42,405 nucleotides of DNA. Source: Nitrosopumilus sp. Its GTDB lineage: Archaea; Thermoproteota; Nitrososphaeria; Nitrososphaerales; Nitrosopumilaceae. Numbering within the stretch: the first letter of the stretch is position 1; every line of letters begins with the position of its first letter. This document shows positions 12,157 to 17,418 of this stretch, piece by piece. The DNA is taken from the NCBI GenBank assembly GCA_029862745.1, contig JAOTWS010000011.1, positions 1-42,405 on the forward strand. Direction: 5' to 3'. Position numbers and translations under genes: made by a program. The notes under the pieces were generated by a model. It did no database searches. It was not told where the DNA came from and saw only the letters and a list, made by a program, of their open reading frames with translations.

Positions 12157-12318
12157 ATGTCAGTAGAAATCATATGTGGTAAATGTGGAGAAAAGATCAC
12201 AAATATGAAAATGTTGAAATCTCTAAAAGATGTCATGAATCCCACCAACGGCAAATGTCCATCATGTGGACAAAAACTTTCCACATCAGAATTTTCACTT
12301 GATGTTCAAGAAAACTGA
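12157..12318 (+). CDS. Small zinc-ribbon protein, 53 aa
   Basis: ATG 12157 to TGA 12318. It encodes two CxxC knuckles (CGKCGEK and CPSCGQK) separated by about 27 residues with a Lys-rich helix, plus a short acidic tail (FSLDVQEN). The full metal-binding set and a TATA-like TTTTGTATATG at about 12134-12144 argue that it is a real gene. No enzyme domain. Such mini zinc ribbons are frequent in archaea and usually bind nucleic acid or act as subunits. It lies immediately upstream of the NrdD-like regulator gene, but a link is not shown. Confidence 0.75.
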   Translation: MSVEIICGKCGEKITNMKMLKSLKDVMNPTNGKCPSCGQKLSTSEFSLDVQEN

Positions 12319-12375
12319 TCTAAAAAGATCTTCGAATTATATTATTTTTAGTTTTCTAAAAAACTGATCTAAAAA
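12311..12375 (+). repeat. 16-bp direct repeat upstream of the NrdD-like regulator
   Basis: AAAACTGATCTAAAAA occurs at 12311-12326 (across the stop codon of the zinc-ribbon gene) and again at 12360-12375, 49 bp apart start to start. The core AAACTGATC reappears inverted as GATCAGTTT at 14602-14610, before nrdJ. Candidate binding site for the regulator encoded just downstream. Confidence 0.45.
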
Positions 12376-12431
12376 CTGGAATAGATTTTTCAGTCATAAG
12401 TCTTATTTACTCCTTAATTTTACGAAGATTG

Positions 12432-14555
12432 ATGAAACTTAATGATGAAGAATTAGAATTAGACTTGGACTCAGATTCTGACTCAGATCCAAAAAGAGGT
12501 GGCATCTTACAATCTACATCAAAACGTGTTAGAATGATCTTTTCTGTTATGGCAAGTCCCAACAGAATTGATATCCTTAGAATTTTAAATTCTAAAGGGC
12601 CTTTGACTTATTCTGAATTAAAATCTTTGGCTGGATTTAAATCAAAAAAAGAAAGTGGCAAATTTGCATATCATTTGAGAAAATTACTTAGGCAATCACT
12701 TGTCGCATTAAATAAATCTGAAAGACGCTATACAATCACAAATCTTGGAAAACTTGTTTTAAGCTTAGCAAGACAGATTGAAGAAAGATCAATTATTGAA
12801 AGTGGTAAAATGTATGTTAGAACATCACATGAATCCATTGAGGAGTTTAATTCTCATAAAATTATTCAATCGCTAGTTCGTGAAGGAAGCCTTCCACTAG
12901 AACTGGCACAAAAAATCACCGAAGAAGTTGAAAACAGAATTTACAAATATCAGACTACCTACCTAACAGGGGCATTAATACGAGAAATGGTAAACTCTGT
13001 TCTTTTAGAACATGGTCATGAGGAATATCGCAATAAACTTGCACGCCTAGGCCTATCTGTTTTTGATGTTCAAGAGATGCTTTCCAATCTAGATAATATT
13101 GATAACGGCGCTGAAGGCTTATTGTTTAATACTGGCCAAAGAGTATTTGCTGAACACTTACTTACAAACATTTTACCAAAAGATGTTGCAGACTCTCATC
13201 TTTCTGGTGATCTACACATTACTCATCCTGGTGTTTGGTCCATGATTCCTGATACAATATTTGTGAATATTAAAGAGTTGATTGAAAATGGAATTGATCT
13301 TGGTGGAAAATATCTTGATGTATCAAGAATACCTGCATCAAAACAACTTGATGATGTTACAAGTTCTTTATCTATTGTAATTGCTCTTCTTTCAAAAGAG
13401 GCTTCAAAAGAAATTGTACTTGATGGATTAGTTTCTTTATTTACAAAATATTCAAAATCTCTTCCAGATCTTGAACAAAAACTGACAGATGCATTTGCAA
13501 CAGCATCTACAACTTCAAAATATAATAAAACAAGTACCAATATTTCAATTAGGTTACAATTAGGAACTGATGCAAAAATAATTAACTCAATTATTAATGC
13601 GTACAAGAATTATACAAAGATAACACCAATTCCAAAAATTGGTTTGATCATAGATGTAGATAAAGGAAAGATAACAGATGTATCAGAATTAGTATCTGAA
13701 ATACTTCTACTTGGTGGAAAAATAATGTTTGCTAAAGGACAAACATCTAGTTATGGTGTTACAAACGGATCTACAAAGACTACCGGTCCACTATCAATCA
13801 CTTTAGAATCTGTTTCTATTAATCTTCCAAGACTTGCATTTGAATCAAATAAAGATGAGACTTACTTTAGAGCAAGACTTGCATTACTTATGAAACCTGC
13901 ATTAGCTTCAATGGCATTAAGAAAGAAAGAGATCTCAGATCTTACTAGAAGAGGACTAAATCCAATTCTTGCAAAGAACACCCAATACATGCAAAGGAGT
14001 TCTGTATCTCTAGTTGTAAATTTGGTTGGACTAAAAGAATCAGTGTTTAACATACTTGGCTTCAAAGACAACAAAGAAGGGCGTGACATTCTTCACAAAG
14101 TAATTGAAACTGCAGTTGATGTTGGTACAAAAAAAGGCAAAGAATTAGGTGATATCGTAGCCATTTCTATGACTGAAACTGAAGCCTCTACTCGCTTTGC
14201 AAACTTGGATGGCGAAAAATACGGTAAGAATTCTACCCTTAATTCAATGGACGACGACTATTATTCACAAGGAATAGTAATCAAAACATCTGAAATTTCT
14301 ACTTATAACAACAAAAGTGAGCCTATTCTTGAATGTAACAAACTTTCAAAATTACTAAATGGTGGTTTACTTGTAACATTGGAAATTGGTAAAGATGCAA
14401 AAATTGATGAAATTAAAGAAGCAATTGAAAAGGCATCAGAACTTACGCCTTCTTTTAAGCCTGTTAGGAATACTCCAATATGCGGTGAATGTGGTTTTAA
14501 GGATGAACCATTTGAAGATAAATGTCCAAAATGTAAGTCTCCGTACATTGTCTGA
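12432..14555 (+). CDS. Winged helix + ATP-cone + inactive NrdD-like protein (putative nucleotide-sensing regulator)
   Basis: ATG 12432 is preferred over the in-frame TTG just before it (707 aa). Domains: an acidic leader; an ArsR-like winged helix (about 25-120: ASPNRIDILRILNSKG, FAYHLRKLLRQSLV, RRYTITNLGKLV); an ATP-cone (about 124-215: YVRTSHESIEEFN, TYLTGALIREMVNSVLLEHG); then a class III reductase (NrdD)-like region. That region includes SINLPRLAFES, RRGLNPILA, VNLVGLKESVFNILGF and TETEASTRFANLD, which mirror NrdD core motifs, and a terminal zinc knuckle (CGECG...CPKC). It stops where NrdD continues to its glycyl-radical loop. The only Cys outside the zinc site is in EPILECNKL, so radical and active-site residues are missing. 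It cannot be a reductase. A DNA-binding, ATP/dATP-sensing regulator of nrdJ downstream is inferred. Confidence 0.85.
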   Translation: MKLNDEELELDLDSDSDSDPKRGGILQSTSKRVRMIFSVMASPNRIDILRILNSKGPLTYSELKSLAGFKSKKESGKFAYHLRKLLRQSLVALNKSERRYTITNLGKLVLSLARQIEERSIIESGKMYVRTSHESIEEFNSHKIIQSLVREGSLPLELAQKITEEVENRIYKYQTTYLTGALIREMVNSVLLEHGHEEYRNKLARLGLSVFDVQEMLSNLDNIDNGAEGLLFNTGQRVFAEHLLTNILPKDVADSHLSGDLHITHPGVWSMIPDTIFVNIKELIENGIDLGGKYLDVSRIPASKQLDDVTSSLSIVIALLSKEASKEIVLDGLVSLFTKYSKSLPDLEQKLTDAFATASTTSKYNKTSTNISIRLQLGTDAKIINSIINAYKNYTKITPIPKIGLIIDVDKGKITDVSELVSEILLLGGKIMFAKGQTSSYGVTNGSTKTTGPLSITLESVSINLPRLAFESNKDETYFRARLALLMKPALASMALRKKEISDLTRRGLNPILAKNTQYMQRSSVSLVVNLVGLKESVFNILGFKDNKEGRDILHKVIETAVDVGTKKGKELGDIVAISMTETEASTRFANLDGEKYGKNSTLNSMDDDYYSQGIVIKTSEISTYNNKSEPILECNKLSKLLNGGLLVTLEIGKDAKIDEIKEAIEKASELTPSFKPVRNTPICGECGFKDEPFEDKCPKCKSPYIV

Positions 14556-14769
14556 AATTCGTAAGTGAAAAACTAGTTACGATCATTTTTGCAAACTTTT
14601 TGATCAGTTTCAGATATCACGATCATTACAATTATGATGGAAGTTATGCTAGTATGAACTTCATAGTAGCGGTGTTAAAAATATTGACACATTAACGTGT
14701 CAAGATCAAAACTTTTGGAGCACATAAGTTATATCCACATTATTCTTTATCGTGTACGAGGAGATTATA
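14556..14769 (+). promoter_or_regulatory. nrdJ upstream region
   Basis: 214 bp. It holds a direct repeat ACGATCATT (14579-14587 and 14619-14627), GATCAGTTT (14602-14610), the 20-bp inverted repeat at 14684-14703, a TATA-like TTATAT at 14729-14734 and a Shine-Dalgarno GAGGAG at 14758-14763, six bases before the ATG at 14770. It is denser in symmetrical elements than other promoters in this window, which fits a regulated gene. Confidence 0.55.
14684..14703. promoter_or_regulatory. 20-bp inverted repeat, candidate operator of nrdJ
   Basis: Perfect 7-bp arms TTGACAC and GTGTCAA flank ATTAAC, of which the central TTAA is also symmetrical, so only one of ten base pairs breaks the symmetry. It lies 26 bp upstream of the TATA-like box. 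The symmetry suits a dimeric winged-helix protein. Confidence 0.55.
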
Positions 14770-17418
14770 ATGGATAATTCACAAATAGAAAATACTATCA
14801 CTGAGATCCGTAAGCGCAGTGGCGCAATCACGGCTTTCAATAAAGATAAAATTTCAAATGCCATATACAGGGCATTGGCTGCCACCTCTAAAGCCGACCG
14901 TGGTGTAGCCGATCAATTAGCAACAAATGTAGTTAACAAACTAGTGGAGCAAGGATTTACAATCACTAGGACACCTACAGTTGAAGATATTCAAGATATT
15001 GTAGAATCAACATTAATTGACAGTGGTAATAGCGATATTGCAAAAGCATATATCGTTTACAGACATGAGAGAAGAAAATTAAGAGATCAAAAAATGAATG
15101 TCCTGAATCTAAAAGTATTAGATCCAGTCTCCAAAAAATTTGATTTGAATTGTCTAAGGGTTTTAGCCTCAAGATATCTTTTCAGAAATTCAAAAAATGA
15201 GATCATTGAATCTCCAACTCAAATGTTTGAGAGAGTTGCAATTCTAGTAGGAATTGGCGATATTCTGTATGATACTCAAGTATTTGACAAATCAGGAAGT
15301 ACTAAACAAAATATAGATGAAGCAGAATCTTATCTTGAAAAACTAGATGCATTTGATTATAAGTTCAAAGTAGGAAATTATTTTTTCAACAAATGGCATT
15401 TTAGATCTTTGATCAATCATTATGTGACATTAGCAAACAAAGGTCAAATGAAGGTAAGCTTCAAAGATCTTCTGACTTTGTTAGCAGCAAAGAAACTTGA
15501 TAGTTATGCAGACAAAATTACTGAATATTTTGAAATGATGACCACACAAGACTTTCTGCCAAATTCACCAACAATGATGAATGCAGGTGGAAGATTGGGG
15601 CAGCTATCAGCATGCTTTGTGCTTGGAATGGAGGACGGAATGGAGCAAATCATGAAATCCACTTCGGATGCAGCATTAATTTTCAAGTCTGGAGGAGGTG
15701 TTGGAATCAACTATTCTGATCTTCGTGAGGAAGGTGATATTGTGGCATCCACTTCTGGTGTTGCCTCTGGTCCAGTATCATTCATGAATATTATCAATAC
15801 CGTAACAGAAGTTGTAAAACAAGGTGGGAAAAGACGTGGAGCAAACATGGGGATCATTGAAGCATGGCATCCTGATGTTGAGAAATTCATTACAAACAAG
15901 ACAGAACCAGGAGTTTTGGAAAACTTTAACGTAAGTGTTGGTATCTGGGAAGACTTTTGGAATGCACTAGTTAACACTGAAGATGGTAACTATGTTTTAC
16001 GTAGCCCACGCAACAAAAAACCAGTTAAAGAAATTAATGCACATCAACTAATTGATCTAATTGCATTATCTGCATGGAAGAGCGCAGAACCTGGGTTGAT
16101 CTTCTTTGATCAAATTAATAAATACAATGTATTTGCCAAAGCCAGACAAGCACCACTAAGAGCAACAAACCCATGTGGTGAACAAAGTCTCTATCCATAC
16201 GAATCATGTAATCTAGGATCCATCAACTTGGTAAATCTTGTTAAAAGACAAGCAGATGGCACTTATGAATTTGATTGGCAAAGATATGAAGAAACAATTA
16301 GAAAGACAACAAGATTTTTAGATAATATTATTGATGTAAACACCTATCCTGTTCCAGAAATCAATATAGCATCTAAAGAGTCTAGAAGAATTGGACTTGG
16401 AGTAATGGGAGTAGCTGATCTCTTATACAGACTAAGAATCCCATACAATTCCAAAGAAGGATATGAATTACAATCCAAACTCTCTGAAGCTTTAACATAT
16501 TATTCAACGGAAGAAAGTGTTGCTCTTGCCAAATCACGTGGTGAGTTCCCACTTTGTTCAAAGACAGAATATCCTGAAGGAAAGATTCCAATAGCCGGAT
16601 ATTATGAGAAACAAAAAGAATCTCATTCATATGAATGGGATCCACTAATTGAGAAAATCCAAAAACATGGTATTAGAAATGTCTTAACTACTACAGTAGC
16701 ACCAACTGGAACACTCTCTATGATTGCAGATTGTTCAAACGGAATGGAACCTGCATTTGCTCTTGTATTTGAGAAAAGAGTTACTGTTGGTAGATTCTTC
16801 TACTCCAATAAGATCTTTGAAGAAGCCCTCAAAGAAAATGGTCTTTATACAGATGAAATTCTTGCAAAAATCGCAGATAACTATGGTTCATTGAAAGGAA
16901 TTGAAGAAATTCCACAATGGATGCAAGATGTCTTTGTCACAGCAATGGATATTCACTGGGCTGATCACCTTATGGCTCAAGCTGTATGGCAAGATTGGAT
17001 TGGAAATGCAATTGCAAAAACAATCAATATGCCTTATGATGTAACAGCAGAAGATGTAAAATCTGCCTATTTACTTGCACATGAATTAGGACTAAAAGGA
17101 ATGACCGTTTATCGTGATGGTTCTAGACACAAACAAGTTCTTCACATGACTAGTGAAAACGCCAAAAAGATCTTTGATGTATCTCCAAGTGAATACGTGA
17201 CTACGTTTGTTCTTTCCAAAATAACAAACCCATACATCAAATCCCAAGTAAATGCATCACTTGCATTAAAAGTTCATGACGCAGAAATCACTACGGAAAC
17301 TCAACATCAAGAAGTTTCTGAAGATCGTCTATGCCCAACATGCAAAAACAATCTAGTCTTTGTAGAAGGCTGTAGTATCTGCATAGAGTGTGGATATAGT
17401 GGATGCACATCGGGATAG
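14770..17418 (+). CDS. nrdJ: Adenosylcobalamin-dependent (class II) ribonucleotide reductase
   Basis: The frame opens at GTG 14752, but the ATG at 14770 has a Shine-Dalgarno GAGGAG six bases upstream and is chosen (882 aa). An N-terminal ATP-cone (about 8-105: GAITAFNKDKISNAIYRAL, AYIVYRHERRKLRDQ) provides allosteric control. The catalytic barrel contains the first redox Cys (QLSACFVLGMEDG), the substrate loop FKSGGGVGINYSDLR, and the active-site NPCGEQ followed by ESCNLGSINL. Late in the barrel are TTTVAPTGTLSMIADCSNG and GLKGMTVYRDGSR. The C-terminal tail carries the zinc/redox Cys cluster (CPTCKNN, CSICIECGYSGC). Class II enzymes reduce ribonucleotides to deoxyribonucleotides using coenzyme B12 independently of oxygen. 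Preceded by the NrdD-like regulator. Confidence 0.96.
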   Translation: MDNSQIENTITEIRKRSGAITAFNKDKISNAIYRALAATSKADRGVADQLATNVVNKLVEQGFTITRTPTVEDIQDIVESTLIDSGNSDIAKAYIVYRHERRKLRDQKMNVLNLKVLDPVSKKFDLNCLRVLASRYLFRNSKNEIIESPTQMFERVAILVGIGDILYDTQVFDKSGSTKQNIDEAESYLEKLDAFDYKFKVGNYFFNKWHFRSLINHYVTLANKGQMKVSFKDLLTLLAAKKLDSYADKITEYFEMMTTQDFLPNSPTMMNAGGRLGQLSACFVLGMEDGMEQIMKSTSDAALIFKSGGGVGINYSDLREEGDIVASTSGVASGPVSFMNIINTVTEVVKQGGKRRGANMGIIEAWHPDVEKFITNKTEPGVLENFNVSVGIWEDFWNALVNTEDGNYVLRSPRNKKPVKEINAHQLIDLIALSAWKSAEPGLIFFDQINKYNVFAKARQAPLRATNPCGEQSLYPYESCNLGSINLVNLVKRQADGTYEFDWQRYEETIRKTTRFLDNIIDVNTYPVPEINIASKESRRIGLGVMGVADLLYRLRIPYNSKEGYELQSKLSEALTYYSTEESVALAKSRGEFPLCSKTEYPEGKIPIAGYYEKQKESHSYEWDPLIEKIQKHGIRNVLTTTVAPTGTLSMIADCSNGMEPAFALVFEKRVTVGRFFYSNKIFEEALKENGLYTDEILAKIADNYGSLKGIEEIPQWMQDVFVTAMDIHWADHLMAQAVWQDWIGNAIAKTINMPYDVTAEDVKSAYLLAHELGLKGMTVYRDGSRHKQVLHMTSENAKKIFDVSPSEYVTTFVLSKITNPYIKSQVNASLALKVHDAEITTETQHQEVSEDRLCPTCKNNLVFVEGCSICIECGYSGCTSG

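Follow-up and report, generated by a model that had tools for sequence, protein, structure and literature searches.

The closest described system is NrdR, a repressor of ribonucleotide reductase (RNR) genes that consists of a zinc ribbon and an ATP-cone (TIGR00244; PMC9110341, PMC12051234, PMC12176259). NrdR carrying dATP and ATP binds DNA (PMC9110341), and its boxes must be separated by a whole number of helix turns (PMC12051234). No match to TIGR00244 above cut-off was found in the genome (G000) that hosts the locus studied here; across the phylum such matches were present in 6 of 121 genomes, all from one distant family, with none among the host-family members listed. No described switch of dNTP synthesis for archaea without NrdR was found in the open-access literature searched. 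Ammonia-oxidising archaea are among the most abundant archaea on Earth, and for them a conserved pseudo-reductase regulator would fill this gap.

Domain construction of REG

The window is the whole stretch of DNA that was analysed, 42,405 nucleotides from Nitrosopumilus sp. Positions 12432-14769 comprise one gene and a 214-nt intergenic region, up to the base before nrdJ. The product of this gene is here named REG; its start is the ATG at 12432 or, alternatively, a TTG three bases upstream at 12429, and its stop is at 14555. The features are as follows, with the type of evidence in brackets.

12432..14555, + strand: REG, a winged helix (wHTH)-ATP-cone-pseudoNrdD-zinc ribbon protein of 707 aa (ORF, Pfam, profile alignment)
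12510..12767, + strand: ArsR-like winged helix, residues 27-112 (Pfam, alignment, profile, codon comparison)
12810..13073, + strand: ATP-cone domain, residues 127-214 (Pfam, alignment)
13074..14471, + strand: NrdD-like body without the active-site Cys positions (alignment, profile, AF2 model)
14472..14552, + strand: C-terminal Cys4 zinc ribbon (C684, C687, C698, C701), the chain stopping before the Gly-radical loop (alignment)
14770..17418, + strand: nrdJ, class II (adenosylcobalamin) ribonucleotide reductase with its own ATP-cone (Pfam, NCBIfam)

Pfam placed DUF7347/HTH_20 at residues 36-110 of REG, the ATP-cone at 127-199 (PF03477, 34.2 bits against a cut-off of 25.8) and NRDD at 455-703, all above the curated cut-offs. 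With a profile of 29 diverse homologues, the solved NrdDs (Streptococcus, Prevotella, Thermotoga and T4) align along the body with E-values between about 1e-28 and 6e-36; the alignment of the N-terminus to ArsR-family regulators is weak. An AF2 model of REG has a mean pLDDT of 58; residues 290-707 are largely confident, and the N-terminal half is of low confidence because the alignment is too uniform there. The best structure matches of the modelled body are NrdDs (4col, E 2e-11) and, together with the profile alignment, they place an NrdD fold in the body. The preliminary description had proposed a dead NrdD to which a winged helix and an ATP-cone are fused, with a chain ending at the zinc knuckle; Pfam, the profile, the model and the catalytic columns described below bear this out, and REG does end after its second CxxC.

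REG resembles NrdR in having an ATP-cone and a zinc ribbon and in its adjacency to RNR genes, but whereas NrdR has an N-terminal zinc ribbon followed by the cone, in REG the N-terminal domain is a winged helix and the zinc ribbon is C-terminal; DNA binding by REG would use the ArsR-like winged helix and not the zinc ribbon. Furthermore, REG is around 700 aa with an NrdD body, its sequence relation to NrdR is limited to the cone, and TIGR00244 is not among its NCBIfam matches. With class III NrdD (PF13597) it shares the whole body and the zinc ribbon, and the two are sister clades in the tree described below, but REG lacks the active-site Cys positions and the Gly radical and has an added N-terminal winged helix. 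With the ArsR/DUF7347 regulators (PF24038, PF12840, PF01022) it shares an N-terminal winged helix of about 80 residues, which in REG is fused to an ATP-cone and a pseudo-NrdD rather than forming a stand-alone metal sensor. No earlier description of the wHTH-cone-pseudoNrdD architecture was found in the open-access literature; the ATP-cone and RNR-repressor concepts are known, and the REG protein family and its construction appear to be new.

Lost catalytic residues and conserved domains

The catalytic columns were compared in an alignment of 52 REG homologues with six intact archaeal NrdDs taken from neighbouring genes. In REG itself the Cys of the RPFC motif is replaced by T and the barrel Cys pair by G and V, and the Gly-radical loop is missing. 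These losses extend through the family: the RPFC column holds Cys in none of the 52 homologues, the first barrel column reads G in 46, L in 4 and F in 2, the second retains Cys in just 3, and the glycyl radical loop (R-x-x-G-Y), present in the intact NrdDs, is found in 0/52. The MGCR motif of the S. thermophilus NrdD pairs, in the REG profile alignment, with a G-x-R that has no Cys. Retained catalytic residues would have refuted the preliminary proposal, and this comparison did not refute it. The four Cys of the structural zinc site are kept in 51-52 of the 52, and since they are kept while the Gly loop and the active-site Cys are lost, the zinc ribbon has outlived the catalysis that it once supported. 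Active wHTH-NrdD enzymes were also considered for the homologues from outside the order and rejected, as all of these lack the radical loop.

In a FastTree phylogeny of 61 sequences all 38 REG-type proteins form one clade (local support 0.82), apart from the 23 intact NrdDs. By this topology the repurposing of a reductase as a regulator probably happened once, and it lends support to the earlier proposal that an obsolete reductase became the body of a regulator.

Conservation is uneven along the protein. Among 35 relatives (73-96% identity) invariant columns make up 86% of the winged helix, the most conserved part of REG, and 72% of the cone, and in successive segments of the body they make up 29%, 18%, 48% and 12%. 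Over the 86 codons of the winged helix, comparison with the homologous locus L101 gave 66 silent differences and no amino-acid difference. Purifying selection on the winged helix is extreme and, together with the invariant columns, reads as the pattern of a working DNA-binding domain. The reading frame is open in nearly all genomes carrying a homologue. Some lineages have a shortened body with the winged helix and cone kept, as in the homologues of 597 aa (G127, L201) and of 616 aa without the zinc ribbon (G092, L179).

Of the residues that contact nucleotides in ATP-cones, E137 and F139 are kept in 49-51 of the 52 homologues, and the canonical K-R-x-G loop reads V-R-T-S. Nucleotide binding by REG is uncertain because of this altered loop, and the ligand could differ from the canonical one. 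The level of invariance of the cone, and its score above the Pfam cut-off in most family members tested, nevertheless suggest that it still does something.

Linkage to RNR genes and distribution

REG had been described as lying immediately upstream of nrdJ, and this is so, nrdJ beginning at 14770, 214 nt after REG. Its product is the one NrdJ of the host genome and the sole RNR large subunit found there; the genome has no other NrdD-family protein. The lack of a conserved linkage to nrdJ across genomes had been named as a refutation, and the comparison of loci supports the linkage: nrdJ is the next gene after REG in 41/41 loci L111-L151. No RNR gene adjoins REG at 33/40 loci of other classes. 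Exceptions are G042, which has nrdJ and no REG, and L152 (G137), where a REG homologue has no nrdJ match beside it. At L138 and L148 the NrdJ after REG is of a distant TSCPD type without an ATP-cone, and the REG-adjacent nrdJ of L163, a locus of another class, likewise encodes a TSCPD-domain class II RNR without the cone; these genes have apparently taken the place that the long nrdJ holds at other loci.

A real nrdD is downstream of REG in six loci of other classes, directly in L171 and L187 and after a small ORF in L155, L156, L164 and L185; this ORF encodes a glutaredoxin in the two that were tested, L155 and L164. At many other-class loci a convergent gene of the aspartate/ornithine carbamoyltransferase family adjoins REG, and such a gene is also found 3' of the RNR gene in L140 and L155. 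The simplest reading would be an inherited REG-[RNR]-carbamoyltransferase locus whose RNR has been exchanged or moved. The REG family is older and broader than nrdJ: in other classes REG precedes a real nrdD or stands alone beside the carbamoyltransferase gene. An intact NrdD or an NrdJ is present in nearly all REG-carrying genomes whose RNR content was checked.

A REG homologue is present in 58/61 relatives. Phylum-wide, 218 of 299 genomes match REG at E<=0.001 and about 170 at E<1e-30, the weaker of these matches possibly being to NrdD or HTH alone. Named contigs with matches are almost all from Nitrosopumilus, Nitrosarchaeum and kin, and among viruses and plasmids there were just partial matches or NrdD-annotated genes. 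Two public records, labelled Phycisphaerales and Proteobacteria (L036, L094), carry a REG locus that is Nitrosopumilus-like (86-87% identical), and because of this they are probably mislabelled or contaminated assemblies.

Candidate operators and proposed function

The sequences upstream of REG and nrdJ contain the following features.

12160..12318, + strand: small zinc-ribbon ORF of 52 aa with a double CxxC, immediately upstream of REG (sequence)
12313..12325, + strand: AACTGATCTAAAA, candidate operator upstream of REG, overlapping the stop codon with which the small ORF before it ends (motif)
12362..12374, + strand: AACTGATCTAAAA, another candidate operator upstream of REG; the presumed TATA box follows about 28 bp later (motif)
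14597..14609, - strand: AACTGATCAAAAA, candidate operator upstream of nrdJ (motif)
14581..14624, no strand assigned: three GATC sites (14581, 14602, 14621) upstream of nrdJ at intervals of about two helical turns, with a fourth at 14704 (motif)

The pattern AACTGATCWAAAA, a 13-mer derived from the REG-nrdJ locus, has four exact copies in the 1.81-Mb genome, three of which are at this locus. Of all 4-mers, GATC shows the strongest enrichment upstream of REG and nrdJ across 55 non-identical Nitrosopumilaceae loci (293 against 75 expected, in 54/55 loci), with a density of 20.9/kb upstream of REG and 12.9/kb upstream of nrdJ, compared to 2.1/kb upstream of other genes of the same loci. Spacings between neighbouring sites favour about 10-11 and 18-21 bp, and in each region 1/5000 random placements was as concentrated in phase at 10.5 bp, although independence is overstated here since the loci are related. 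Helically spaced candidate sites upstream of both the RNR gene and its own gene are a further likeness of REG to NrdR, in the case of REG seen in Nitrosopumilaceae only, and the helix-turn spacing of the NrdR boxes is an attractive parallel. No GATC excess was found in families f2, f3 and f8, the arrays being confined to Nitrosopumilaceae, and yet the winged helix in f3 and f8 is 93-96% identical. For this reason it is as a working hypothesis that the GATC sites are assigned to REG, and another factor might bind them.

The best explanation, which we consider likely, is that a dead class III reductase gave rise to REG as a dedicated regulator of RNR gene transcription. In its favour are the domain order and the NrdD fold, the lost catalytic residues, the single origin, the strong selection on the winged helix, the linkage to RNR genes of different types, the lack of NrdR in the host, and the GATC sites and the 13-mer upstream of both genes. 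Against it weigh the altered cone loop, the confinement of the GATC arrays to Nitrosopumilaceae, the other-class loci where no RNR gene adjoins REG, and the exceptions G042 and L152. REG would probably be the missing archaeal switch for nrdJ and is best read as functionally like NrdR with an unrelated architecture. The winged helix would bind operators upstream of the REG gene and nrdJ, which in Nitrosopumilaceae would probably be the helically spaced GATC sites; the ATP-cone would sense ATP/dATP or dNTPs together with the NrdD-type body, which is still organised around the zinc ribbon, and both would change oligomeric state. Most probably REG would bind DNA more readily when dATP is high and would then repress nrdJ, in the manner of NrdR, with activation also possible. 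A wider proposal is somewhat favoured: REG would belong to an ancient archaeal family in which an RNR turned into the transcription factor of the enzyme that replaced it. Such a family would have stayed with the RNR locus while the RNR there changed class (nrdD to nrdJ) or nrdJ subtype, would sense dNTPs at allosteric sites inherited from the RNR, and would be a convergent counterpart of NrdR.

Alternatively, REG may be an RNR-linked transcription factor that activates, or that responds to a non-nucleotide signal such as redox state, or zinc via the Cys4 ribbon. The TATA boxes, as presumed by eye, are downstream of the GATC sites, an arrangement which fits activation as well as repression; the retention of the zinc ribbon and the departure of the cone loop from the canonical KR-G motif also agree with this possibility. 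The conservation of the cone weighs against it, suggesting a domain that is still functional, and we regard it as unlikely. It is a good deal less probable that REG acts at the protein level, as a pseudo-subunit or scaffold that binds NrdJ or NrdD and modulates its activity, with the wHTH serving protein contacts. The retained NrdD fold and the adjacency of the genes would suit such a role, but the linkage survives exchange of nrdJ for a distant subtype and for nrdD, and a specific protein interface could hardly accommodate such exchanges; moreover it is the winged helix that is best conserved, and candidate sites are common to both upstream regions. A decaying pseudogene or a still cryptic reductase could account for the NrdD homology across the whole body, but with the radical loop and barrel Cys gone, a frame kept open under strong purifying selection, and an intact RNR also present in most REG-carrying genomes, this was rejected as highly improbable.

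If REG is such a regulator, an allosteric enzyme has been recast as a transcription factor of the same pathway, and with this locus a defined protein can be tested directly, along with its promoters and candidate operators.

A wider regulon was sought with the 13-mer and rejected: the sole exact copy elsewhere is at the end of a gene read as scpA, a one-mismatch pair is intragenic, and the 64 sites at <=1 mismatch are modestly above the 45 of a reversed-pattern control. The densest GATC arrays seen are those of L095 and L224 (G096), with around nine sites within 150-200 bp upstream of REG and A/T-rich tracts between them. Many relatives show, upstream of REG, sequence similar to the 52-aa zinc-ribbon ORF. 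In L133, L135, L150 and L227 (families f2, f3 and f8) an element resembling TTTTACAAAG(G/T)TA(A/C)TTTAA is present near the start, upstream of REG.
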